A stretch of 64,000 nt of DNA from NCBI GenBank assembly GCA_902787185.1, contig CADAFP010000010.1:42056-106055 (forward strand), given 5' to 3'. Positions 2,081 through 47,816 of the stretch are shown here, piece by piece; position 1 is the stretch's first letter, and each line of letters opens with the position of its first letter. Origin of the DNA: an uncultured Bacteroidales bacterium. Its GTDB lineage: Bacteria > Bacteroidota > Bacteroidia > Bacteroidales > Muribaculaceae. Below the pieces are notes generated by a model. That model worked only from the letters and a program-made list of their open reading frames with translations, was not told where the DNA came from and ran no database searches. Made by a program: the position numbers and the translations under genes.

Positions 2081-3526
2081 ATGCTATTTAATTCGTTCAC
2101 ATTCATGATATTCCTGCCAGTAGTGTTCTTGCTCTACTGGTTTGTCTTCAAGCCGTTGAAGTGGCAAAACGTGCTCCTGCTGGTGGCAAGCTACGTGTTC
2201 TATGGCTGGTGGGACTGGCGTTTTCTCCTGCTGATTGTCATCACCTCGTTGAGCAGCTTCTGCAGCGGCCTTCTCATCGAGCGCTATGAGGGCAGGCGAG
2301 GTTTGCAGCGGACCGTCAGCGCCGCGAATATCGTGTTGAACCTGGGCATCTTGGGCACTTTCAAGTATTTCAACTTTTTCAAGGACAGCCTGGCATCGTT
2401 GCTGGCCCTGGCGGGAATCACCCCAGACTGGCCCACGATGAACATTATCCTGCCTGTGGGAATCAGCTTCTACACTTTCCAGGCACTGAGTTATTCCATC
2501 GACGTTTACAGCAAGAAGTTTAAGCCCACGCGCGACATCGTTGCCTTCTTCTCGTTCATCAGTTTCTTCCCCCAGCTGGTTGCCGGTCCCATCGAGCGGG
2601 CATCCAACCTGCTGCCGCAGATGCTGCGTGAGCGTTCATTTGATTACGGCATCGCTGTGGACGGTATGCGCCAGATGCTGTGGGGCTTTTTCAAGAAACT
2701 CATCATTGCCGATGGCTGTGCCGAGGTGGTGAACCAGTTGTGGGCCAACATGGAAAGTTCGACAGGCCTGATGCTGTTGATCGCGTCGCTGTTGTTCACC
2801 TTCCAAATCTATACCGACTTCTCGGGTTACAGCGACATTGCCATCGGATGCGCCAAGTTGTTCGGATTCCGCCTGACCACCAACTTCAGGGTGCCGTATT
2901 TCTCACGCAACGTGAGGGAGTTCTGGCGTCGGTGGCACATCACGCTCAATGCCTGGTTCACCCAATATGTCTATTTCCCGTTGGGCGGCAGCCGCTGTTC
3001 AAAGTGGCGCACTGTCCTGAACACGGTCATCGTGTTTGCCCTGTCGGGACTGTGGCACGGTGCCGATTGGACCTTTGTCCTCTGGGGCTTGTATCTGGGC
3101 CTGCTGTTCATCCCGCTCATCCTGTTCAAGTCACGTCGTTACAAGGATACCGCGGCTCATGGCCGCCTGTTGCCGACAGGCAGTGAATTCCTGTCGATAC
3201 TGGTGACGTTCCTGCTCATCAATTTCGGCTGGGTGCTGTTCCGTGCCCCCAACGTGGCAGCCTTTGCCGACTTCACCGCACGCCTGTTCTCGCCATCGTT
3301 GTTCAATCCCCACGGACTGACGATGAAGATGGCGACGATGTTGCTGTGGTGCGGTGGACTCTTGCTGGCCGAGTGGCTGCAGCGAGAGCGCCAACACGTG
3401 CTGCAGATCGATGGCTATGCCATCTTCTCGACACGCCCCGCCCGCCTGGCACTGTATGCGCTGCTCGTCGCGCTCATCTTCTACTTCGCCGGTGAGGTGC
3501 AAACATTCATCTACTTCCAATTCTGA
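2081..3526 (+). CDS. MBOAT family O-acyltransferase (AlgI/DltB-like)
   Basis: A 481-residue polytopic membrane protein. Membrane-bound O-acyltransferases move an acyl group, often acetyl, across the inner membrane to a polysaccharide or other envelope polymer. The AlgI-type N-terminus (LFNSFTFMIFLPVVFLLYW), the SYVFYGWWDWRF segment and the GISFYTFQALSYSIDVY segment are all present. The two histidines expected of the family are visible: H286 in RRWHITL and H326 in LSGLWHGADW. The next gene starts 8 bp downstream and encodes an AlgJ/AlgX-like protein, the usual partner. Together they suggest acetylation of an exported glycan. The substrate is unknown, and no alginate or teichoic acid genes are nearby. 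Confidence 0.9.
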   Translation: MLFNSFTFMIFLPVVFLLYWFVFKPLKWQNVLLLVASYVFYGWWDWRFLLLIVITSLSSFCSGLLIERYEGRRGLQRTVSAANIVLNLGILGTFKYFNFFKDSLASLLALAGITPDWPTMNIILPVGISFYTFQALSYSIDVYSKKFKPTRDIVAFFSFISFFPQLVAGPIERASNLLPQMLRERSFDYGIAVDGMRQMLWGFFKKLIIADGCAEVVNQLWANMESSTGLMLLIASLLFTFQIYTDFSGYSDIAIGCAKLFGFRLTTNFRVPYFSRNVREFWRRWHITLNAWFTQYVYFPLGGSRCSKWRTVLNTVIVFALSGLWHGADWTFVLWGLYLGLLFIPLILFKSRRYKDTAAHGRLLPTGSEFLSILVTFLLINFGWVLFRAPNVAAFADFTARLFSPSLFNPHGLTMKMATMLLWCGGLLLAEWLQRERQHVLQIDGYAIFSTRPARLALYALLVALIFYFAGEVQTFIYFQF

Positions 3527-3534
3527 CCCCAGCC

Positions 3535-4584
3535 ATGCGAAAATTTCTCACCATCATATCCTATACCGTGTTGCCCGTCTGGTTGATTCTCGTCGGGCTG
3601 GCCACCTGGCTATGGGCTACCAATGACAATTCCGGTGACCTGATGCGCTTGGGTCTCATCGACGGCGGCGCCGAATATACCGACTCCATCAGCAAGCGCT
3701 TGCTGCCCGAAGTCTATTACGACGGCCAGGACAACGACAGCCTGCTGCGCCTTGACACATGCGGCGTGCTGGTTATCGGTGATTCGTTCTCACATGGCGG
3801 TGGCGTGGGCAAATCCGGCGACTATGTCAATTATCTGGCCCATGACAGCGGACGCAGGGTGGTCGTGTTCACCCCCTCGGACCCCACGCTGGGCAGCCCC
3901 ATGCAGGTCGCCTATGATATCTTGAAACTGGGTGTCATCGACTCGACCAACGCCCCCAACCTGGTCGTCCAAGAGGTGGAGCGTTACCTGGTTGACCGCC
4001 ACTGCAAGTTCGTCACCACCCACGACTCGATTCCGCGCCCCAAGCCCGAAGAGGAGTCGGAGGCTCCTCTTGATCGCCCCGAGCACGAGGACTACAGCCC
4101 GCTGCTGCGAGTCAAGGACTATGTGTTCTACCATTTCTTGGGCGCAAACCCGATTTATACCGCCCAACTGAATCACCCCATGTTTGGCGGCAAGGAGCCT
4201 GACAAACTCTATTTCTACAACGATGATGTGAAACTGGGCTTTAACGTGACCGACGGTGAGCGCAAGAAGGTGGTGTCCTGCTTTGAGGATGTCATCGCCA
4301 TGGCACGCCGCCAGGGTGTGAACCTGATTATCCTCATTGCTGCCGACAAGTATGACATGTACCAGGATTTCATTGTCGAAAACCGCTTCCCTGCCAAGAC
4401 CCTCAACGAGGATATCGCCCGTTGGTTGCAGCCTGCCGACAGGGAGCACCTGCTGTTTTCCAAAGACATCCTCTACCCGCTGCTCGAGCAGGGCGTAATG
4501 GACGTGTATCTGTTCAACGACACCCACTGGTCGCCAGCCTCGTCACAGGTCATTGCCGGGGAAATCATCAAGAAGCTCAAGTAA
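3535..4584 (+). CDS. AlgJ/AlgX-like SGNH acetyltransferase partner protein
   Basis: 349 residues with one N-terminal membrane anchor (about residues 5-27), then a presumably periplasmic SGNH-hydrolase-like domain. The nucleophile block is GDSFSHGGG (S84). The Asp-x-His pair is in NDTHWSP (D329, H331), the same arrangement as in AlgJ and AlgX. These proteins take the acetyl group passed through an MBOAT protein and place it on a polysaccharide. It sits 8 bp after the MBOAT gene and is surely co-transcribed. A charged, proline-containing insert lies near residues 165-185. The glycan acceptor cannot be named from sequence. Confidence 0.8.
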   Translation: MRKFLTIISYTVLPVWLILVGLATWLWATNDNSGDLMRLGLIDGGAEYTDSISKRLLPEVYYDGQDNDSLLRLDTCGVLVIGDSFSHGGGVGKSGDYVNYLAHDSGRRVVVFTPSDPTLGSPMQVAYDILKLGVIDSTNAPNLVVQEVERYLVDRHCKFVTTHDSIPRPKPEEESEAPLDRPEHEDYSPLLRVKDYVFYHFLGANPIYTAQLNHPMFGGKEPDKLYFYNDDVKLGFNVTDGERKKVVSCFEDVIAMARRQGVNLIILIAADKYDMYQDFIVENRFPAKTLNEDIARWLQPADREHLLFSKDILYPLLEQGVMDVYLFNDTHWSPASSQVIAGEIIKKLK

Positions 4585-5166: not shown

Positions 5167-5287
5167 AAACTTGAAGATTAGGGATTAAAGATTAGAGATT
5201 AGGGATAGACCCATAGGGTCGAAAACCCGCAAACTTTGAAAAAGTTTTCTTCACTAATCACTCATCACTAATCTCTAATCTTCAAGT
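5167..5287. repeat. Fold-back repeat built of 7-bp GATTAGN units
   Basis: This fills most of the 291-bp gap between 5092 and 5384. The left arm (5167-5206) starts AAACTTGAAGATTAG and runs as tandem GATTAGG, GATTAAA, GATTAGA heptamers. The right arm (5251-5287) is its imperfect reverse complement. Each arm is flanked by a smaller hairpin, for example GAAGTGCTTAGCACTT near 5290. It belongs with the other heptamer arrays in this window. No promoter was seen in the gap. Confidence 0.6.
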
Positions 5288-5383: not shown

Positions 5384-7699
5384 ATGGCTAAGAAAGTATT
5401 ATTGTTATCTCTCGTGACAGTGTTGACAGCGCTGTGGGCATCGGCGCAGCACGCCGTGGGTGACTGGCGCATCCACACCTCATTTGTGGGCGACAACGTG
5501 ATGGCTGTGGCCGAAGGCAACCAGTGGGTCTATTACCTGAGCGGGGGCAATCTGTTCAGGCTTGACAAGGAAACCAAAGAGAACGAGTCGCTGAATATCA
5601 TGAATGACTTGAGCGATATGACGATTTCCCAGATCTACTACAACAACGAGCGGGACTATCTGGTCGTCATCTACAGCAACACCAACATCGACATCATCTT
5701 GAGCGATGGCCAAGTCATCAACATGCCCGAGGTGAAAGACGCCGTGCTGACCGCCAGCAAGGCCATCAACGATGTCACCTTTGCCGACGGGTTGATATAT
5801 CTCGCCACGGGCTTTGGCTATGTCGTGATTGACGACAAACGCTTTGTCGTCAAGGAGTCGCACATCTATGGCACCCCCCTGACTACGGTGGCACAGATAG
5901 ACAAGTGGCTGCTGCTGTCAACCGAGAGTGACCTGTACTACGGCCTTGCCAGCGATTATCATGAGCAACTCGAGTCGTTCAAGACCGTATCGTTCCACAA
6001 GAATTGCATCATCAGACCCATCACCGACAGCACACTCTTCTGCGTGACGGGTGGTAATACCTATTTCGGAACGTTGAAGCCCGTGAGCGACGATAAACTC
6101 AAAATTGACGGTAGCACAATCATTGAACAGAAAACCAGCATTCTGCAACCTACCCTCGACGGTTGGCTGCTGTGGGTACCCAAAGAGAACCAGTGTTATA
6201 AGACCGATGCCGAGGGCAAGAACCCCGTCGTCATCGACACCGAGGGTGAGATGTGTAGCGCCAATCCCCGTGGCGACGGCAAGCTATGGCTTGCGGGACC
6301 ACAGGGACTGCACTTGCAGGGCGAGGGCAACTACTTCCTTCCCAACGCATTAAGCTTCAAGAATCCCTACTGGATGACTTACAACAAGCAGCAGGACAAA
6401 CTGTACGTCTCCAGTCCCACGGCCAATGTCCACTTTGGGGATCCCCTGCCGTCTTATATTAACACCTATGACGGCATCATGTGGCACGACGTCACCCCCG
6501 AGGGTGCTCCGGCCACGGGTACCTATTGGATAGAGTTCATGCCTGGCGAGAGCGACACTTACTTTATAGGCACGTGGACTAAAGGCCTGCTCAAGGTGTA
6601 CCAGGATGAGATCGTATTCAAGTACGACACGGCTAACAGCCCCATTTCATACAGAGGCGGGGCTATGCATCCCGTCACCAGTATGGACCGCAACGGCAAC
6701 CTGTGGGTCGTCCAACCCTATGAGAGCTCAGAACACCCCGCCATGGTGTTACCCGCCGCCAAGACCAAGCTAAACCAGTCCACCGCCGACGACTGGTTCT
6801 TGCCCCAGATTGATGGCTTGACCTCAACTGACAGCCAGCGCTCCAGCTTCATCTCCACCAAGCAGGGAAGCCAGGACATTAAGATATTTAACGACGGCAA
6901 CTTCAGAACGCCCCTCTTCATCTGGAACACCAACGGTACAATGTCGACCAAACCGCCACAAGTGGCCCTCAAGTCGCTCAACGACCAGGACGGCGAGCAG
7001 ATCTCCTGGACCAACATCTTGTGCTTGACCGAGGATTTGAGCGGCAACGTGTGGATGGGCAGCACCGAAGGCATCTGTTACTTCAATCCCAACCAGGACC
7101 TCAACTCCAACACCTTTAAAGCTGTCCGCCCCAAGGTGCCCCGTAACGACGGCACGGGCTATGCCGACCGCCTGATGGACGGTATCCAGGTCAACTGCAT
7201 CGACGTGGACGGCGCCAACCGCAAGTGGATTGGCACCGAGAGTTCAGGCTTGTTCCTCGTGAGTGCCGACGGCAGTGTGGTCATCGACCGCTTCAACGCC
7301 ACCAACAGCCCGCTGGCCAGCAACACCATCTATCGCGTGTGCTGCAATCCGAACAGCAACTCGGTCTATGTCACCACCCCGGCAGGCCTGTATGAATACT
7401 TCAGCGACAGCAGCCCTGCTGCCAGCAGCTATTCCGACATCCTCGCCTTCCCCAACCCCGTGCGTCCCGACTATGGCGGCGATGTCACCATCACCGGCCT
7501 GATGGAGGGTTCACTCGTCAAGATTGCCGATGCCAGTGGCAACGTCATCCGCCAACTCAAGTCAACTGGCGGCATGGTGACGTGGGACTGCCGTGACGAG
7601 AGCGGCGAGCATGTCAAGTCAGGCGTTTACCTGGTGCTGTGCTCACAGTCGAGCGGCAGCGGCAAAGCCGCCGTGACCAAGATTGCCGTCATCCGCTAA
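5384..7699 (+). CDS. PorZ-like T9SS-associated beta-propeller protein
   Basis: A 771-residue exported protein. The start is the ATG at 5384, giving a signal peptide MAKKVLLLSLVTVLTALWAS followed by AQHAVGDWRIHTSF. An upstream TTG at 5363 would put extra polar residues ahead of it. The body is WD/YVTN-like propeller repeats (for example NRKWIGTESSGLFLV). The end is a FPNPVRPDYGG-started beta domain like T9SS C-terminal domains. Length and N-terminal DWRIH-type opening match PorZ of Porphyromonas gingivalis (about 776 residues), a surface protein that supplies anionic LPS to the PorU sortase. It is a paralogue of the gene at 3-1928. Having two such genes close together is unusual and suggests one has diverged. 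Confidence 0.8.
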   Translation: MAKKVLLLSLVTVLTALWASAQHAVGDWRIHTSFVGDNVMAVAEGNQWVYYLSGGNLFRLDKETKENESLNIMNDLSDMTISQIYYNNERDYLVVIYSNTNIDIILSDGQVINMPEVKDAVLTASKAINDVTFADGLIYLATGFGYVVIDDKRFVVKESHIYGTPLTTVAQIDKWLLLSTESDLYYGLASDYHEQLESFKTVSFHKNCIIRPITDSTLFCVTGGNTYFGTLKPVSDDKLKIDGSTIIEQKTSILQPTLDGWLLWVPKENQCYKTDAEGKNPVVIDTEGEMCSANPRGDGKLWLAGPQGLHLQGEGNYFLPNALSFKNPYWMTYNKQQDKLYVSSPTANVHFGDPLPSYINTYDGIMWHDVTPEGAPATGTYWIEFMPGESDTYFIGTWTKGLLKVYQDEIVFKYDTANSPISYRGGAMHPVTSMDRNGNLWVVQPYESSEHPAMVLPAAKTKLNQSTADDWFLPQIDGLTSTDSQRSSFISTKQGSQDIKIFNDGNFRTPLFIWNTNGTMSTKPPQVALKSLNDQDGEQISWTNILCLTEDLSGNVWMGSTEGICYFNPNQDLNSNTFKAVRPKVPRNDGTGYADRLMDGIQVNCIDVDGANRKWIGTESSGLFLVSADGSVVIDRFNATNSPLASNTIYRVCCNPNSNSVYVTTPAGLYEYFSDSSPAASSYSDILAFPNPVRPDYGGDVTITGLMEGSLVKIADASGNVIRQLKSTGGMVTWDCRDESGEHVKSGVYLVLCSQSSGSGKAAVTKIAVIR

Positions 7700-8682: not shown

Positions 8683-8874
8683 TTAGGCTTTAGGCTTTAG
8701 GCATTAGGCATTAGGAATTAGAAATTAGGAATTAGGAATTAGGAGTTAGGAGTTGGCGGATGCCAACTAGGGACTAGGGACTAGAAACTAAGGACTAGGG
8801 ACTAAGGACTAAGGACTAAGGACTAAGGACTAAGGACTAGAAACTAAAAAAGACTAAGGACTAGAAACTAAAAA
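8683..8874 (+). repeat. Heptamer array A with palindromic core
   Basis: Fills the pdxJ-exbB gap, starting 4 bp after the pdxJ stop. Ten in-phase 7-bp units TTAGGNN (TTAGGCT, TTAGGCA, TTAGGAA, TTAGGAG) run 8683-8752. A 14-bp core TTGGCGGATGCCAA follows at 8753-8766, exactly two units long. Then come CTAGGGA / CTAAGGA / CTAGAAA units to 8874 with one 3-bp slip near 8851. The core with its flanks forms a hairpin AGTTGGC-GGAT-GCCAACT. Because 7 is not a multiple of 3, TAG or TAA falls in all frames. Confidence 0.9.
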
Positions 8875-8908
8875 CAGAATACTAACAACTTTAAAATAGA
8901 AATATAAC

Positions 8909-9709
8909 ATGTCAATTCTCAACATGATTCTCGCCCAAGTGACGCCTGCCGACACGATGATGCAGCAGGCCGCCGACACCGTGCAGCAAGCTATCGACAG
9001 CGCCGCACAGGTTGTTACCGACAGCGCTGCCGCCCTTGCCGCTGCAGCAGCCCCCGTAGCCGAGGCCGCCGAACCTATTGTCAAGGAACTCTCGGTATGG
9101 GAACTTATCAAAGCCGGTGGCTGGTTCATCATGATTCCGCTGGCACTGCTGGCTGTCGTGAGCATCTACATCTTCTTTGAGCGCCTGTTCGCCATCAATC
9201 ATGCCAACCGTCAGGACCGCTCGTTCATGGACCGCATCAAGGAGTATATCCACCGTGGTGACGTGAACCAGGCGCTGCAACTGTGCCAGGACACCAACAC
9301 CCCCTACTCCCGCATGATTGAGAAGGGTGTCACCCGCATTGGCCGTCCCATGAACGATGTGCTCGTCGCCATCGAGAACGTGGGCAACATGGAGGTCGCC
9401 AAACTCGAGAAGGGCTTCTCATGGCTCGCCACGACGGCTGCCGGCGCTCCCATGATCGGTTTCTTGGGCACCGTCATCGGTATGGTACAAGCCTTCTTCC
9501 AGCTCGCCAGCGCCGGTAACAACAGCAACGTGACCATCCTGGCCAGCGGCATCTATCAGGCCCTGGTAACCACCGTAGCCGGTCTGGTTGTCGGTATCAT
9601 CGCCCTGTTTGCCTACAACTTCCTGACCTCGCGCGTCAACAAGGTGATGAACAAGCTCGAGGGCAAGACGATGGAATTTATGGACCTGCTCAACGAGCCG
9701 GCAAAGTAA
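8909..9709 (+). CDS. exbB: MotA/TolQ/ExbB proton channel family protein
   Basis: 266 residues. ExbB forms the pentameric inner-membrane channel that, with ExbD, uses the proton gradient to energise TonB and outer-membrane transporters such as SusC. Three membrane helices are visible: WFIMIPLALLAVVSIYIFFE (about residues 71-90), APMIGFLGTVIGMVQAFF (about 178-195, the conserved family segment) and IYQALVTTVAGLVVGIIALF (about 214-233). The N-terminus before the first helix is longer than in E. coli ExbB and is Ala-rich (about residues 25-55). exbD and a TonB-family gene follow on the same strand. Repeat arrays A and B flank this gene exactly. Confidence 0.9.
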   Translation: MSILNMILAQVTPADTMMQQAADTVQQAIDSAAQVVTDSAAALAAAAAPVAEAAEPIVKELSVWELIKAGGWFIMIPLALLAVVSIYIFFERLFAINHANRQDRSFMDRIKEYIHRGDVNQALQLCQDTNTPYSRMIEKGVTRIGRPMNDVLVAIENVGNMEVAKLEKGFSWLATTAAGAPMIGFLGTVIGMVQAFFQLASAGNNSNVTILASGIYQALVTTVAGLVVGIIALFAYNFLTSRVNKVMNKLEGKTMEFMDLLNEPAK

Positions 9710-9710
9710 G

Positions 9711-9906
9711 TCAGGAATTAGGAATTAGGAATTAGAAATTAGGAATTAGAAGTTAGGAGTTAGGAATTAGGAGTTGGCGGATGCCAACTAAGGACTAGGG
9801 ACTAGGGACTAGAAACTAGGGACTAGAAACTAGGGACTAGAAACTAAGGACTAAGGACTAAGGACTAAGGACTAGGGACTAGAAACTAAGGACTAAGGAC
9901 TAAAAA
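9711..9906 (+). repeat. Heptamer array B with palindromic core
   Basis: Fills the exbB-exbD gap, starting 1 bp after the exbB stop. About nine TTAGGNN-type units occupy 9711-9773, then the same 14-bp core TTGGCGGATGCCAA at 9774-9787, then 17 in-phase CTARRRA units to 9906. Layout and orientation match array A, but unit order and number differ. A and B are therefore related by family rather than by a recent simple copy. Confidence 0.9.
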
Positions 9907-9918
9907 CTTATAAGAACT

Positions 9919-10425
9919 ATGGCACTCAAGAGACAACATAACACTCTGTCGATGTTCAGCATGGCATCGATGACCGACGTCATCTTCCTGCTGCTCATCT
10001 TCTTCCTGGTCACCTCGACGTTCGTCTTCCCGTCGGCGCTCGAAGTGAACCTGCCCCAGAGTAGTGAACAGACATCCATCAAACCCTCGACGCGCATCTA
10101 TGTGGACAAGGACCTGAACATGTATGCCACCCAGACGAGCGAAACGGGCGAGAGCGACTTGCTGCCCATCGCCCCCGAGCAGCTCGAAGGCTTCATGCAG
10201 GCACTCAAGGCCGGCAACCCCGACGAGTTTGTTGCCGTCTATGCCGACGAGGAAGTGAACTATGGCAAGATTGTCGAGATTCTGGACAAGGGCTCGCGCC
10301 AGGGCGTGAAAATCGTCCTCGCCACCAAGCCCAGCGAGGCCACCTTCGGTCCCGTCACCGACCAGCAGGCCGCCACTGGACAGGATATCGTCACCGAACC
10401 CCTACCTACCACCACCAACCCGTAA
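9919..10425 (+). CDS. exbD: ExbD/TolR family biopolymer transport protein
   Basis: 168 residues: a short cytoplasmic N-terminus, one membrane helix (about residues 19-40) and a periplasmic domain. The helix carries the essential proton-carrying Asp of the family, D20 in SMTDVIFLLLIFFLV. ExbD pairs with ExbB to energise TonB. The C-terminal 20 residues are Thr/Pro-rich. It is followed 12 bp later by the TonB-family gene, so these two are certainly co-transcribed. exbB is the same strand but separated by array B. Confidence 0.9.
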   Translation: MALKRQHNTLSMFSMASMTDVIFLLLIFFLVTSTFVFPSALEVNLPQSSEQTSIKPSTRIYVDKDLNMYATQTSETGESDLLPIAPEQLEGFMQALKAGNPDEFVAVYADEEVNYGKIVEILDKGSRQGVKIVLATKPSEATFGPVTDQQAATGQDIVTEPLPTTTNP

Positions 10426-13620: not shown

Positions 13621-13727
13621 CCAAGACGGATCGTCAAAGTGAGCGGATGCCAATTGTCATTATTGTGCTTATTGTCTTCCTTTTATTTTAGTTGTTTTTT
13701 GTCGTCCTTTTATTCTTATTGTCTTTG

Positions 13728-13917: not shown

Positions 13918-16383
13918 ATGAATATATCCTATAAGTGGCTCAAACGCTATATTGACACCGACCTGACACCTGAGAAGGTGGCCGAGGCACTGACCTCGCT
14001 GGGTCTGGAAGTGGGAGCAGTTGAACAAGTGGAAACCATCAAGGGCGGCCTGCGCGGACTGGTTGTGGGACAGGTGATGACCTGCATCGACCATCCTAAC
14101 AGCGACCACCTGCACATCACCACAGTGAACCTGGGTGACGGCAATGAGCCGGTGCAGATCGTGTGCGGTGCCCCCAATGTGGCCGCTGGCCAGAAGGTCA
14201 TCGTCGCCACGCTGGGCACCAAGCTCTATGACGGCGACCAGGAATTTACCATCAAGCGCAGCAAGATGCGCGGCGAGGAGTCGCTGGGCATGATTTGCGC
14301 CGAGGACGAGATTGGCGTGGGCACCAGCCACGACGGCATCATCGTCCTGCCCGAGGACGCTGTAGTGGGCACTCCCGCTGCCGATTACTATGGCATCGAG
14401 GATGATTACCTGATTGAGGTCGATTTGACGCCCAACCGCATCGACGGCGGCTCGCACTATGGTGTGGCCCGCGACCTGTCGGCATGGATGCATCGCCATG
14501 GCATGGACGGAAACCTGCACAAGCCCAGTGTCGAGGAGTTTGCCATCGACCGTCAGGACGGCGGCATCCCCGTCACCGTCGAGAACGCCGAGGCTTGCCC
14601 CCGCTATGCCGGTCTGACCGTGCGCGGCGTGAAGGTGCAGGAGAGCCCCAAGTGGCTCAAGGACCTGCTGCTCGCCGTGGGACAGCGTCCCATCAACAAT
14701 ATCGTCGATATCACCAACTACATCCTGCTGGGCACGGGACAACCCATGCACTGCTTTGACCTGAGCAAGGTCAAGGGCGACCGCATCGTGGTCAGGACCG
14801 CCCCCGCGGGCACCAAGTTCGTCACCCTCGACGGCGTGGAGCGCACGTTGACCGACCGTGACCTGATGATCTGCAACGGCGAGGAGCCGATGTGCATCGG
14901 TGGCGTGTTTGGCGGTCTGGACTCGGGTGTGACCGAGACGACCACCGACGTGTTCCTGGAGTCGGCCTACTTCCACCCCACGTGGATCCGCAAGACGGCC
15001 CGCCGCTTTGGCCTGAACACCGACGCCTCGTTCCGCTTTGAGCGCGGCATCGACCCCAACGAGGTCATCTATAACCTCAAGCTGGCCGCTATGCTCGTCA
15101 AGGAGCTGGCAGGTGGCGAAATCTGCGGCGACATCGTTGACGTGAAGGCGCACGACTTCCCCGGCTTCCCCGTGGAGTTGCGCTACGACTATGTGAAGCG
15201 CCTCATCGGCAAGGACATTCCCCACGATGAGATCCGCGACATCGTGAAGAGCCTGGAGATGGAAATCACCGCCGAGGACGACGAGAAGATGAACCTCGTC
15301 GTGCCCACCTATCGTGTTGACGTTCGCCGCCCCTGCGACGTGGTGGAGGACGTGCTGCGCGTCTATGGCTACAACAACGTCGAGTTCACCGACGCCGTTC
15401 ACGGCAGCCTGTCGAACAAGACCGACGTCGATTGGCGCGACGACATGCAGGAGACCGTGAGCAACCAGCTCACCAGCGTGGGCTACCACGAGATGATGAA
15501 CAACTCGTTGACCGTGGGTGCCTACTACGAGGGGCTGACGACGTGGCCCGCCGACTTGTGCGTGCGCATCATGAACCCGCTGAGCAGCGACCTGAACGTC
15601 ATGCGCCAGACGCTGCTGTTTGGCGGCCTGGAGAGCATCGCCCGCAACATCAACCACAAGAACGCCAACCTGCGCCTCTATGAGTTCGGCAACGTCTATA
15701 GCCACGACGGCAGCGTGAGTCAGGAGGAAAAAGCCCTCGCCCCCTACAGCGAGAGCACCCAGATGGCGATGTGGCTCACCGGCAACAACCACGACGAGTC
15801 GTGGGCCGACAAGGTGAGGGCACTCACCGTCTATGACCTCAAGGCCGACCTCGAGAACGTGCTCGTCAACATGGGCATCAACCTGCACGACCTCGTCGTC
15901 GAGCAGCACGAGGACGAAATCCTCAACCCCGCCCTGCGTTACAGCAACCACGGCGGCAAGACCATCGCCGTGATGGGTGTCGTTGACGAGGCGCTGGCCA
16001 AGAAGTTTGACGTCGATCAGCCCGTCTATTACGCTCAAGTGAACTGGAACCTCGCCTGCAAGCTGGCGATGAAGAAGGACATCAAATATACCGACCTGCC
16101 CAAGACGCTACCGCTGCGCCGCGACCTGGCGCTGCTGGTGGACCGCACGGTGACTTACGACGACATCCGCCGCGTGGTGGAGGCCAGCGAGAAGAAGTTG
16201 CTGCGCTCGATGACACTGTTCGACGTCTATGAGAGCAACAAACTGGAGGCCGGCAAGAAGTCCTATGCCATCAGCATGATTCTGCAAGACAACGAGAAGA
16301 CGCTCAACGACAAGCAGATCGATGCCATCATGAACAAGATTATCAAGAATCTGGAGACCCAGCTGGGAGCCAAGCTCAGATAA
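13918..16383 (+). CDS. pheT: Phenylalanine--tRNA ligase beta subunit
   Basis: 821 residues, full length. It is the beta chain of the alpha2-beta2 enzyme that charges tRNA-Phe. In order: N-terminal tRNA-binding OB fold (about 40-155, with the DHPNSDHLHI motif), B3/B4 editing domain (about 215-390), B5 domain (about 400-475), catalytic-like core, and a C-terminal anticodon-binding FDX-ACB domain (about 730-820, KTLPLRRDLALLVD). pheS is not adjacent, as is usual in Bacteroidota. The stop codon TAA forms the first unit of a TAACAGT heptamer array. A long open frame on the opposite strand is a codon-bias shadow. Confidence 0.97.
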   Translation: MNISYKWLKRYIDTDLTPEKVAEALTSLGLEVGAVEQVETIKGGLRGLVVGQVMTCIDHPNSDHLHITTVNLGDGNEPVQIVCGAPNVAAGQKVIVATLGTKLYDGDQEFTIKRSKMRGEESLGMICAEDEIGVGTSHDGIIVLPEDAVVGTPAADYYGIEDDYLIEVDLTPNRIDGGSHYGVARDLSAWMHRHGMDGNLHKPSVEEFAIDRQDGGIPVTVENAEACPRYAGLTVRGVKVQESPKWLKDLLLAVGQRPINNIVDITNYILLGTGQPMHCFDLSKVKGDRIVVRTAPAGTKFVTLDGVERTLTDRDLMICNGEEPMCIGGVFGGLDSGVTETTTDVFLESAYFHPTWIRKTARRFGLNTDASFRFERGIDPNEVIYNLKLAAMLVKELAGGEICGDIVDVKAHDFPGFPVELRYDYVKRLIGKDIPHDEIRDIVKSLEMEITAEDDEKMNLVVPTYRVDVRRPCDVVEDVLRVYGYNNVEFTDAVHGSLSNKTDVDWRDDMQETVSNQLTSVGYHEMMNNSLTVGAYYEGLTTWPADLCVRIMNPLSSDLNVMRQTLLFGGLESIARNINHKNANLRLYEFGNVYSHDGSVSQEEKALAPYSESTQMAMWLTGNNHDESWADKVRALTVYDLKADLENVLVNMGINLHDLVVEQHEDEILNPALRYSNHGGKTIAVMGVVDEALAKKFDVDQPVYYAQVNWNLACKLAMKKDIKYTDLPKTLPLRRDLALLVDRTVTYDDIRRVVEASEKKLLRSMTLFDVYESNKLEAGKKSYAISMILQDNEKTLNDKQIDAIMNKIIKNLETQLGAKLR

Positions 16384-16422
16384 CAGTTAACAGTTAACAG
16401 ATAACAGATAATAGATAACAAG
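16381..16422 (+). repeat. Heptamer array E (TAACAGT type)
   Basis: Six in-phase 7-bp units: TAACAGT twice, TAACAGA twice, TAATAGA, TAACAAG. The first TAA is the pheT stop codon itself. It fills most of the gap to the yebC-family gene. Confidence 0.8.
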
Positions 16423-17263: not shown

Positions 17264-17305
17264 GGCATCCGCACACTGAAGTGAACAAATCAGAATGCGG
17301 ATGCC
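17264..17305 (+). terminator. GGCATCCGCA hairpin after the yebC-family gene
   Basis: GGCATCCGCA (17264-17273) and TGCGGATGCC (17296-17305) pair perfectly over 10 bp with a 22-nt loop. There is no clean T-run after it. Just upstream, CTTCACTCGCCCCAC is repeated directly at about 17202 and 17218. Confidence 0.5.
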
Positions 17306-26915: not shown

Positions 26916-26920
26916 ATTTT

Positions 26921-26962
26921 AGTCCTTAGTTGTTAGTCCTTAGTCCTTTGTTGTTAGTCCTT
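26921..26962 (-). repeat. Heptamer array F (AAGGACT type)
   Basis: Six 7-bp units; on the minus strand AAGGACT and AACAACT/AACAACA variants, the same sequence class as the CTAAGGA halves of arrays A-C. It overlaps the TAA stop of the VTC gene (26961-26963) and fills the gap to the DUF4956 start. Confidence 0.75.
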
Positions 26963-31431: not shown

Positions 31432-33636
31432 ATGAAAAAGAATCTGATTATGTTGCTCATGACGGGACTGCTGGCACTCTCGATGCACGCAATTCCTGCC
31501 GACCCGACTCCCATGCCAGTGACTCAACCCGATGGCACCACAGTGACCATCAAGCTGCATGGTGACGAGTTCTTCCATGTGACCACCACCCTCGACGGCT
31601 ATACCGTGCTCAAGAATGCCGCTGGCTATTACACCTATGCCCGCCAGCAGGCCGACGGCAGCCTGGTGCCTGGTGACCTGATTGCACGCGATGCTGCAAA
31701 CCGCACCGCTGCCGACCGCGCCTTCCTGGCCCGCACCCCTAAGGGCCTCACCGACAAAGCCAACGCCGCCAACGGCACCAAGAAACTGGGCCGCCGTAAC
31801 GCAGCGATGCGCCGTGTGGGCTCAGATGGAATGATGGATTACGAGCGCTTTCGCGGTCTCATCATCTTGATTAACTACACCGACAAGAAATTCTCCATGC
31901 CCGAGGTCAACGCCTTCTATGATGACATGGTCAACACGCCCAATTTCACGGGCTATACCCTCAACGGCCGTCGTGTGAACATGCCTGGCAGCGTGAGGGA
32001 CTATTTCTATGACAATTCCTACCACATCTTTGACCCCACATTTGACGTGGTGGGTCCCGTGGAGGTGAACTACAAGTGCACCGACCCCAGGGGAACGGAC
32101 GGAGCCGAGCCGATTTTCTATGCCGCACTCAACGCTGCCGATTCACTGGTCAACTACAATGACTATGACACTGATGGTGACGGATATGTCGATATGGTCT
32201 TCTTCCTGGTGGCAGGCCTGTCGGCCAACTACAGCGGCAACAACTCGAACTACCTGTGGCCCCACATGTACTATCTCTACAGGGCCCCCAGGCTGGATGG
32301 CGTGGGATTTGGCCTGTATGCCTGCTCGACCGAAATCGCCGGTTGGGAATCCTATTACCGCGACGTGAACGGCATCGGCACCTTCTGCCACGAGTTTGGT
32401 CACGTGCTGGGCTTGCCCGACCTGTATGACACCGACTATGAGCAAGGCGGCGGACAGAGCCGCGATCCCGGCGAGTGGTCGATTATGGCAGGCGGCAGCG
32501 GCAACAACTTCGGGCGCGATCCTGTGGGCTACAGCCTGTATGAACGCTATGCCCTGGGATTCACCGAGCCCATTCTCATCACCGAGCCCGGCGAGTTGTC
32601 GATTCAGCCCCTGGACGAGAGTAACACAGGCTACCGCCTGGACACCAAGAGGGAGCACGAGTTTTTCCTCATCGAGAACCGTCAGGACAAGGGCAAGTGG
32701 GACAGATACCTGCCTGGTCACGGCATGCTCGTGGCCCACGTGGACTCGACCAACGCCCGCATCTGGGATTACAACGAGGTGAACTGCAACCCCAGCCACA
32801 TGTGCTACGACCTGCTGCGTGCCAGCTACAAGGGCCGTGACAGTGACAGCGACCCGTATCCCGGCACCGACATGGTGACCTCGCTCAACAACTTCACCAA
32901 TCCCAACCTGATGTCATGGGACAGGAAGTTCAGCGATCTTGTTTTCAACGACATTGCCGAGAACAATGGCATCATCACCTTAACGGTGGATATGGACACC
33001 TCGATTGTCTCCATCATTGAAGACTTTGAGCTCATGCCCGCAACCGATGACATGAGCGCCAAGGGTGTTCAGGGTGTGTACAGCAAGTGGGACTTCTCCA
33101 AGTGCGCCATCCAGACGCTGGATGACGGCACCAAAGCCGTTGCCATGAAGAAACCCAGCCAAATCACCACCTCCACCCCAATGCGCATCAAGCCCTACAT
33201 GGTTCAATATACCATCACCAACCCGACCGCGACCGAAGCCAAGTTCGTGTTCTATTACTCGCTTGACAAGGGTAAGACCTGGACTTCGAGCGTTGAGGGA
33301 CAAGTCTCGGTATCGGGCGGCAATTTCACCAATGTTGCGGTGACACTGCCCACCACTGCCCCCATCATGATGCGTATCTCACAGACGGCAGGCAACGCCA
33401 AGAGTCCCTGCTATCTCGACGATGTACAGCTTTATTATGATGAATTCTGGCCCGAGCCTATTACCGGTGACTTGAACGAGGACCAACTGGTCAACATCAG
33501 CGACCTGAACCAGATGATTGACTATGTCTTGAAGGGTTCGGTGGATGCCTATACAATGGAGCTGGCCGATTTGAACCATGACGGCCAGATCAACATCAGC
33601 GATATCAACCTGCTGATTAACATCATCGTCAGGTAA
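31432..33636 (+). CDS. M6 family metalloprotease with dockerin-like tail (copy 2)
   Basis: 734 residues from ATG 31432 (MKKNLIMLLMTGLLALSMHA); an in-frame ATG at 31417 would add five residues before the signal peptide. The active site is HEFGH (H320, E321, H324) in GIGTFCHEFGHVLGLPDLYD, then SIMAGG. The order matches copy 1: propeptide with LHGDEFFHVTTTLDGYTVL, catalytic domain, beta-sandwich, dockerin-like pair. In the first loop of that pair, GDLNEDQLVNISDL, Gln and Leu occupy positions that are Gly and Lys in copy 1. No separate promoter was recognised. Confidence 0.88.
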   Translation: MKKNLIMLLMTGLLALSMHAIPADPTPMPVTQPDGTTVTIKLHGDEFFHVTTTLDGYTVLKNAAGYYTYARQQADGSLVPGDLIARDAANRTAADRAFLARTPKGLTDKANAANGTKKLGRRNAAMRRVGSDGMMDYERFRGLIILINYTDKKFSMPEVNAFYDDMVNTPNFTGYTLNGRRVNMPGSVRDYFYDNSYHIFDPTFDVVGPVEVNYKCTDPRGTDGAEPIFYAALNAADSLVNYNDYDTDGDGYVDMVFFLVAGLSANYSGNNSNYLWPHMYYLYRAPRLDGVGFGLYACSTEIAGWESYYRDVNGIGTFCHEFGHVLGLPDLYDTDYEQGGGQSRDPGEWSIMAGGSGNNFGRDPVGYSLYERYALGFTEPILITEPGELSIQPLDESNTGYRLDTKREHEFFLIENRQDKGKWDRYLPGHGMLVAHVDSTNARIWDYNEVNCNPSHMCYDLLRASYKGRDSDSDPYPGTDMVTSLNNFTNPNLMSWDRKFSDLVFNDIAENNGIITLTVDMDTSIVSIIEDFELMPATDDMSAKGVQGVYSKWDFSKCAIQTLDDGTKAVAMKKPSQITTSTPMRIKPYMVQYTITNPTATEAKFVFYYSLDKGKTWTSSVEGQVSVSGGNFTNVAVTLPTTAPIMMRISQTAGNAKSPCYLDDVQLYYDEFWPEPITGDLNEDQLVNISDLNQMIDYVLKGSVDAYTMELADLNHDGQINISDINLLINIIVR

Positions 33637-33664
33637 TCACCTGATGCCATCATCGTCAGGTGAT
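33636..33664 (+). other. ATCACCTGA hairpin and repeats between M6 copies 2 and 3
   Basis: ATCACCTGA (33636-33644) pairs with TCAGGTGAT (33656-33664) over 9 bp. Further copies of TCACCTGATG and TGATCATCTGAT follow to about 33702. No T-run. Confidence 0.45.
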
Positions 33665-33762
33665 CATCTGATAATTCCATGGTCACGTGGTCACCTGATG
33701 ATTCCATTAAACTATAAACCTGATTTTCATTAGTATTTATAAACCAACTAAAACTTGTGGTT

Positions 33763-40442: not shown

Positions 40443-40445
40443 TAA

Positions 40446-40609
40446 TTAGAAATTAGGAGTTAGGAATTAGAAATTAGGCTTTAGGTATTAGGCTTTAGGG
40501 GCGGATGCCAACTAGAAACTAGGGACTAAGGACTAGGGACTAGGGACTAAGGACTAGGGACTAAGGACTAAGGACTAAGGACTAGGGACTAAGGACTAAA
40601 ACCTAAATA
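40446..40609 (+). repeat. Heptamer array C
   Basis: Starts 3 bp after the polyferredoxin stop. Seven to eight TTAGNNN units, then a core GGGGCGGATGCCAA (40498-40511), then 14 CTARRRA-type units to 40609. The left half is offset by 3 bp relative to the core, unlike A and B. It ends 13 bp before the next start codon. Confidence 0.88.
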
Positions 40610-42074: not shown

Positions 42075-42210
42075 GCTTTAGGCATTAGGCTTTAGGCATT
42101 AGGTTTTAGGCTTTAGGTGTTAGGCTTTAGGTGGCATCCGCCCAATTCCTAACTCCTAACTCCTAATTCCTCATTCCTCATTCCTCATTCCTAATTCCTC
42201 ATTCCTCATT
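42071..42210 (-). repeat. Heptamer array D, core in opposite orientation
   Basis: The TAG stop of the reductase is part of the first unit. Eight or nine TTAGGNN units (TTAGGCT, TTAGGCA, TTAGGTG) run to 42133. Then comes the core GGCATCCGCCCAATT, the reverse complement of the A-C core, then CCTAACT / CCTAATT / CCTCATT units to 42210. On the minus strand the order AGGAATN units - GGCGGATGCC - other units is the same as in arrays A-C. Confidence 0.85.
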
Positions 42211-42218
42211 AAAAAAAG

Positions 42219-47753: not shown

Positions 47754-47816
47754 TCCCCTAATCACTAATCTCTAATCACTAATCAATTGGTGAAGCGGTT
47801 AGCCGCTTCACCAATT
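47754..47816 (-). repeat. Heptamer array G plus perfect hairpin inside the PUL
   Basis: A hairpin AATTGGTGAAGCGG-TTAG-CCGCTTCACCAATT (47785-47816) with a perfect 14-bp stem and 4-nt loop. On the minus strand it is followed by GATTAGT, GATTAGA, GATTAGT, GATTAGG units (to about 47757). There is no T-run, so it need not stop transcription. It could stabilise the upstream SusC/SusD message or lower expression of the enzymes. Confidence 0.7.

Follow-up and report, generated by a model that had tools for sequence, protein, structure and literature searches.

The window, a 64,000-nucleotide stretch of a contig from an uncultured Muribaculaceae bacterium, contains exbB on the plus strand (8909–9709; MotA/TolQ/ExbB family, Pfam PF01618, E = 8.7e-29), which is matched in 61 of 61 genomes of the genus. 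It lies between pdxJ and exbD, with gene names around the arrays taken from Pfam. Two heptanucleotide arrays on the same strand, A and B, fill most of the gaps on either side, A between the pdxJ stop (8679) and exbB (8909), and B between the exbB stop (9709) and exbD (9919). In array A, a 5′ arm of TTAG-type units (8683–8752; TTAGGCT, TTAGGCA, TTAGGAA, TTAGAAA and TTAGGAG) begins 3 bp past the pdxJ stop and leads into the core TTGGCGGATGCCAA (8753–8766), which is followed by a 3′ arm of CTAR units (8767–8874; CTAGGGA, CTAGAAA, CTAAGGA and CTAAAAA). Array B has the same layout: its 5′ TTAG arm (9711–9773) begins 1 bp past the exbB stop with TCAGGAA as the first heptad, the core TTGGCGGATGCCAA spans 9774–9787, and the 3′ CTAR arm (9788–9906) stops 12 bp short of exbD. 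All arms were delimited from the sequence and with TRF, both 5′ arms also by a lag-7 test, and the cores from the sequence.

An earlier note on this DNA had described both arrays as strictly 7-bp periodic, with TTAGGNN units on the left. A period of 7 is present in both, but array A is not strictly periodic, because a 24-bp duplication at 8828–8874 shifts the phase of its right arm, and the left units are better written TTAG(G/A)NN, as they are TTAG-type heptads that do not always read TTAGG. The two different unit types of the note are also there, although they are related to each other, as the TTAG and CTAA arms of one degenerate inverted repeat. Its other local claims are upheld: the core takes exactly two heptad units, in heptad phase at both sites, its orientation is identical on both sides of exbB, and stop codons fall in every frame of both strands (8–9 in each of the six, with no open stretch longer than 42 nt). 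With stops on both strands in most units, neither A nor B leaves any of the six frames open.

Further copies and variants are spread along the window, which holds 15 lag-7 arrays in 8 of 34 gaps and, for any one lag not divisible by 7, 0–1 arrays. Between two co-directional genes, a TTAG arm, GGGGCGGATGCCAA and a CTAR arm follow one another at 40443–40601 (plus strand; TRF and sequence), and a copy at 42075–42212 (plus strand; TRF and sequence) has an inverted core, GGCATCCGCC, between arms of TTAGGCT and (AATTCCT)n units. An inverted pair of another flavor, GATTAGN and ACTAATC, lies at 5175–5282 without a core (plus strand; TRF and lag-7 test). Single arrays, all found with TRF, occur directly past a stop codon (16384–16422, plus strand; TTAACAG/ATAACAG flavor), just ahead of a start codon without a core (26919–26948, minus strand; CTAAGGA/CTAACAA), and in gene direction at 47755–47788 (minus strand; GATTAGT/GATTAGA). 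At 17264–17305, with no strand assigned, the sequence contains an inverted core pair, GGCATCCGC-N24-GCGGATGCC, without heptads.

In the 3.22-Mb assembly (81% complete), we count 53 copies of the core GGCGGATGCC (28 and 25 by strand), compared with 4 (2 and 2) for a reversed-pattern control. At 30 of these 53 sites a lag-7 array lies no more than about 80 bp away, and at 20 of them this is true of both sides; the remaining sites are intragenic or in intergenic sequence of other kinds. We sampled 21 stretches of this genome, consisting of the window and the first 20 kb of contigs C1–C20, in which genes were called with a purpose-made codon-usage caller whose start positions are approximate. This sample holds 53 lag-7 arrays in 36 of 259 gaps, 11 arrays at lag 9 and at most 4 at lags other than 7, 9 and multiples of 7, and its 345 kb of coding DNA holds only 2 lag-7 arrays. 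The word GCGGATGCCA likewise occurs 16 times in 97.6 kb of gaps versus once in 344.6 kb of genes, an excess that is not seen in small samples of G012, G018, G041, G068 and G015. Arrays A and B are not chance products but two members of a dispersed, patterned element family. The search for further copies that the earlier note had proposed thus bears out its modular element, and its alternative, a lack of other copies or an assembly artefact, does not hold: arrays also stand in the orthologous exbB–exbD gap of 15 of 29 relatives (best 30 of 61 exbB loci), where the gap ranges from 15 to 191 bp, the flavors differ and the core is present in 4.

Lag-7 arrays occupy 84 of 676 gaps in 11 genomes of the genus, our own included; the stretches from the relatives are not all random, because they were partly picked around exbB or on contigs known to bear the core. 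No lag-7 array was found in the fetched stretches of three of the ten relatives (G012, G015 and G068), and lag-9 arrays outnumber lag-7 ones in G015 and G041. Of 101 genomes of the genus, 34 contain the core extended by CTA, GCGGATGCCAACTA (control, 0), with 38 copies in our genome, 31 in G051 and 1–12 in each of the other 32. In a sample of 295 genomes of the order, a 15-mer, GGCGGATGCCAACTA, matches three, namely our own (24 copies) and two others with one match each; its reversed control also matches two genomes once, so that elsewhere in the order the signal is at control level. Among the matches listed for a half-core-plus-CTAR pattern (80 of at least 101 stretches), most named genomes are MAGs under the labels Bacteroidales, Prevotellaceae or Muribaculaceae, several of them ruminant-derived by name, with isolated matches elsewhere such as a Capnocytophaga and a Tychonema. 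In cultured Capnocytophaga gingivalis ATCC 33624 (locus L136), a different hairpin, GTTGGCT...AGCCAAC, precedes an (ACTAAAA)n array that extends to an ATG.

The order of the arms is nearly invariant. We called polarity from TTAG (or AACAG/AATAG) versus CTAA (or CTGTT/CTATT); flavors include TTAGGAR, TTAGGCT, TTAACAG and TTAGTCC among others, with CTAA-type flavors to their right. When both polarities share a gap, the TTAG-type array comes before the CTAA-type array in 23 of 24 cases and after it in 1 (21:0 in co-directional gaps), and the whole is therefore a degenerate inverted repeat. The core sits at the polarity switch in most, not all, of the two-arm gaps. Its single fixed orientation, as claimed in the earlier note, applies around exbB but does not extend to the genome, where 15 cores are forward and 4 inverted in gene direction; nor is a fixed core the rule there, as some two-arm gaps lack it and it also joins non-heptad repeat phrases.

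The element lies almost only between genes, mostly co-directional ones, with arrays in 73 of 498 tandem gaps versus 11 of 178 other gaps. The leading TTAG-type array begins a median of 0 bp past the called stop codon (10 bp or less in 29 of 44 gaps), and CTAAAAA units tend to be the last ahead of a start codon. In tandem gaps with a single polarity, TTAG arrays are stop-side in 21 cases and start-side in 3, and CTAA arrays stop-side in 9 and start-side in 12 (Fisher p = 0.0035); CTAA-type arrays of two-polarity gaps are start-side in 17 cases and stop-side in 7. We rejected the idea that the two arm types mark the 3′ and 5′ ends of genes, which mostly reduces to the strand-symmetric polarity, although one-polarity gaps still follow the gene side.

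Within the heptad, constraint is concentrated on the tetramer YTAR, which contains a stop on both strands and is held by the consensus of 97 of 117 arrays. Over the 511 units of YTAR arrays, deviation from consensus is 6.1, 4.1, 5.5 and 7.0% at the YTAR positions versus 19.4, 18.0 and 19.8% at NNN, roughly a threefold difference; units within one array are not independent, and p-values computed from unit counts are for that reason too small. Both-strand stops occur in 98 of 117 arrays and in 32 of 45 distinct flavors, compared with 24.6% of shuffled units and 18.4% of non-array intergenic 7-mers. Arm pairing is not the sole constraint, because YTAR is equally conserved in gaps with one detected arm and in two-arm gaps. 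Sense-strand stops alone are also insufficient, since they would protect one edge of YTAR, whereas its two edges, positions 1 and 4, differ little in conservation.

The predicted RNA fold of both exbB-flanking gaps is a ladder of UUAG/CUAA rungs separated by 3 × 3 internal loops, capped in array A by the core RNA AGUUGGC-GGAU-GCCAACU. Each gap has a minimum free energy of −45.6 kcal/mol, with z-scores of −5.6 and −5.1 and none of 200 shuffles as stable in either case. Of 28 elements folded, 22 reach z < −2 and 6 do not. Pairing of 5′ with 3′ arms averages −23.5 kcal/mol, versus −11.9 for 5′–5′, −10.5 for 3′–3′ and −11.0 for a composition control. Element-specific co-evolution of the arms was rejected, because native arms pair no better (−24.8) than arms permuted among the elements of a species (−25.3). 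In tandem gaps the CTAG tetramer appears 3 times in 5′ arms and 41 times in 3′ arms (units not independent), and it keeps a U–G wobble pair only in the 3′ arm. An intrinsic terminator was also rejected, as neither A nor B contains a terminator-like site; the core in both is followed by CTAGGGA or CTAAGGA units and not by a T run. Rfam gave no match above the gathering score in the 64-kb window, which argues against a known RNA family there.

Comparison with relatives reveals that these gaps turn over fast, elements being present in one species and absent from another. The pdxJ–exbB gap was compared in 29 of the best 30 of 61 exbB loci, our own genome being one. In all 28 relatives it measures 51–87 bp and contains no lag-7 array; in our genome it measures 232 bp, with the element placed 3 bp past the stop, and a leader resembling that of the relatives still follows the element. 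From this comparison we read the element as a probable gain in our genome. It is dispensable at this gap, because relatives live without it there, and the flanking of exbB, which the earlier note had emphasized and which is real in the window, is incidental, because the pdxJ–exbB copy is absent from every relative compared. No target-site duplication flanks it, as judged by eye at this one site against 7 relatives. Synteny with relatives is lost beyond about 20–28 kb. Within arrays, adjacent units show no significant excess of identity. Between loci, 6 pairs share at least 5 units, a count reached in 6 of 300 permutations; the longest shared run, 6 units, is within the permuted range, and copying of long unit runs en bloc was rejected on this ground.

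The closest known counterparts are the cyanobacterial STRR, which share with our arrays a 7-bp tandem unit, an intergenic position and hairpin formation (here predicted) between co-directional genes; the earlier note had chosen the right comparison. A passage on the STRR between hupS and hupL describes putative hairpins, suggests a part in transcript stability or translational coupling, and calls their function unknown (PMC2670836), and short repeated intergenic sequences are described in part of a report on the Nostoc hyp operon (PMC2408588). Apparent differences from the STRR are the two arms of fixed polarity around a GGCGGATGCC core, the mostly both-strand stops and the many flavors of the element described here, which belongs to Bacteroidales. 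A Tychonema record, among the matches listed, holds ACTAAGG-type heptads resembling the present arrays. Direct repeats of TAACTGA are reported from Beggiatoaceae, some cyanobacteria and Bacteroidetes, in sections of an article that places these heptamers between genes, and in one genome mostly directly upstream of the start codon (MacGregor 2015, PMC4679880). The same sections note that most differences between closely related strains of Cyanothece are insertions or deletions in steps of 7 nt (PMC4679880). The main text of that article has no word starting 'palindrom' (PMC4679880). TAACTGA is the consensus unit in 1 of our 117 arrays, and as a repeat it is open on the reverse strand and by itself is not predicted to form RNA structure.

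Dispersed inverted repeats are likewise known from a TAACTGA-bearing genome, that of Thiomargarita, as MITEs, one family of which is suggested, in an excerpt of the report, to derive from a PD-(D/E)XK_2 element (PMC4853749). That nuclease family differs from the one discussed below, and in the same excerpt TAACTGA lies outside the repeat consensus and heptad arms are not mentioned (PMC4853749). Compared with a MITE, the arms here are inverted with the core at the center, and some copies have an inverted core pair. The REP/BIME sequences of enterobacteria are dispersed intergenic palindromes in mosaic combination, whose hairpins have been suggested to shield mRNA ends or uncouple cistrons. The present units are heptads instead of longer palindromic units. 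We found no description in open-licence PubMed Central of a heptad family with arm polarity and a palindromic core. The element belongs to a known kind, the intergenic heptanucleotide repeats, and its novelty appears to lie in its built-in order of polarity and core. Unrelated bacteria carry such repeats, for which no function or origin is generally accepted, and this family offers testable rules in its arm polarity, its YTAR against a freer NNN, its both-strand stops, its palindromic center and its rapid gain and loss.

We propose that A and B are mosaic inverted-repeat spacers, typically (TTAGNNN)n - GGCGGATGCC - (CTAANNN)n, most likely serving as cistron punctuation, a reading to which we give a probability of about 0.45. 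Once transcribed, TTAG tetramers are predicted to pair with CTAA tetramers as 4-bp rungs with 3 × 3 internal loops, and the core stem–loop is predicted to cap the resulting ladder. The stops would soon halt any translation that enters or leaves the spacer. By analogy with STRR and REP/BIME, the ladder hairpin may shield the upstream mRNA end or uncouple two cistrons. We infer this punctuating function from the pattern and its predicted fold. Arms seem to lengthen and shorten by slippage in heptad steps, in keeping with the lag-2 unit identity given below, and whole elements could be gained and lost quickly, perhaps by gap-to-gap copying through recombination in shared repeats. Were the ladder hairpin to act in this way, the element would be a reusable gene separator in Bacteroidales operons.

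The main rival is that the arrays are functionless, neutral repeats, produced by polymerase slippage at hairpin-prone seeds beside stop and start codons and confined between genes only because heptads destroy reading frames. We regard this as doubtful, although it retains some weight. It agrees with the fast turnover of one gap across species and the absence of the element in relatives, with a lag-2 unit identity of 0.34 against 0.24 when permuted (reached in 1 of 300 permutations), and with the proposal of polymerase slippage for heptanucleotides that is summarised in part of PMC4679880. Slippage alone, however, does not predict that YTAR deviates less than NNN, that TTAG leads to CTAA, that stops fall on both strands or that the core recurs.

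The core also occurs around a gene. In locus L284 of our genome (G000:C11; 1012–1511), two cores in inverted orientation, some 490 bp apart, enclose a GxxExxY gene of 132 aa (NCBIfam TIGR04256, E = 1.1e-42). We fetched 35 of 89 GxxExxY (PF13366) matches and, after dropping L327 for an internal stop, retained 34 genes from 17 genomes of the genus, our own and 16 relatives (loci L284 and L308–L342). For mirror symmetry of their flanks, 30 of the 34 score higher than the 95% point of 193 control genes. The mean mirror score over the 34 is 56.6, compared with 31.0 for swapped flanks and 22.3 for controls, none of which reaches the GxxExxY median of 55. Swapped flanks often contain the same phrases, and many loci represent the same site in different species; measured against swapped flanks, only 11 of 34 genes lie above the 95% point and only 1 above the 99% point, and a gene's own partner flank is the best for 17 of 34. 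The core is present in the flanks of 11 of 34 genes (5 of 16 sites) versus 15 of 193 controls, and the 13 loci with at least the core 8-mer always have GCATCCGC before the gene and GCGGATGC after it. Heptads match in 1 of 34 flank sets and no heptad-armed GxxExxY gene was found among the 34; because of this, the tie between heptad arrays and these genes appears to run through the shared core and plan only.

In other genera of the order, 28 GxxExxY genes (29 loci, L343–L371, with L363 dropped because the ORF rule missed its gene) have a mean mirror score of 46.4 versus 30.1 for swapped flanks; 11 of the 28 pass the 95% point, and the control comprised only 2 genes. Many of these genes also have inverted flanking phrases, for which reason the association may be order-wide. 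The phrases themselves are different ones, such as cacagagtaacacggag... and cgcaaagacgc.... A search of open-licence PubMed Central under the name GxxExxY returned no description of inverted arms around these genes, and by that name the family has a single mention in each of 2 papers there.

These observations admit a broader and speculative reading, which we hold to be unlikely, in which the gaps are inverted-arm mosaics joined by GCGGATGCC and spread by GxxExxY proteins, and the heptads a gene-less derivative tolerated or used by the host. GxxExxY genes would sit inside the same arm–core–core′–arm′ plan, and the heptad version might serve the host as a six-frame-stop, ladder-hairpin cistron separator. 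If true, this would give a little-described family a role and intergenic heptanucleotide repeats an origin. In a rival explanation, arms and core would be gene-less copies of a mobile element encoding the small PDDEXK_3 protein, which would cut gaps and so spread the arms by break repair; we consider this improbable. The bounding inverted core pair, the mirrored flanks inside and outside the genus, the constant core orientation and a mean shared heptad run of 2.02 units, higher than in any of 300 permutations (1.82), speak for it. It has to contend, however, with GxxExxY genes that bear other repeat phrases as arms and share the core alone, with the modest counts against swapped flanks and the two-gene control in other genera, with the lack of an evident target-site duplication at the pdxJ–exbB gain, and with shared heptad runs that never exceed 6 units. 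Should the link hold, GxxExxY would be a candidate engine for spreading intergenic repeats.

Two further explanations fare worse. Protein-binding DNA arrays, or slippage-driven expression switches for the downstream gene, would suit 3′ arms that end near the called start codon (median 38 nt, 41 gaps) and a palindromic tetramer conserved on both strands, but they are very unlikely given that arrays are scarce in divergent, promoter-bearing gaps (4 of 94) and that the annotated neighbor genes have no evident common function. Movement by a RAYT (Y1) transposase, which acts on REP-like palindromes and whose gene is usually flanked by its own REPs, was rejected as hardly credible: the element is a dispersed intergenic palindrome and our 81% complete assembly has four Y1_Tnp matches, yet none of these four loci has the 9-mer core or the searched heptad strings within 3.3 kb (2.2 kb for one), which already contradicts this origin and further separates the element from REP/BIME.

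Repeats of other kinds were also noted. In the window, about 3 copies of a 27-bp unit with a near-palindrome (TCAGGTGATCACCTGA-like) span a gene end and the following gap at 33621–33707, and another 27-bp tandem repeat (TTATTGTCTTTTGTCGTCC...) lies beside a GCGGATGCC at 13660–13726, in a 555-bp gap ahead of the gene at 13918. In a relative (locus L242, G053), gaps near 180–1150, 2830–3590, 6850–7420 and 9700–10400 are long mosaics of a few repeated phrases, many of which join at GCGGATGCC.
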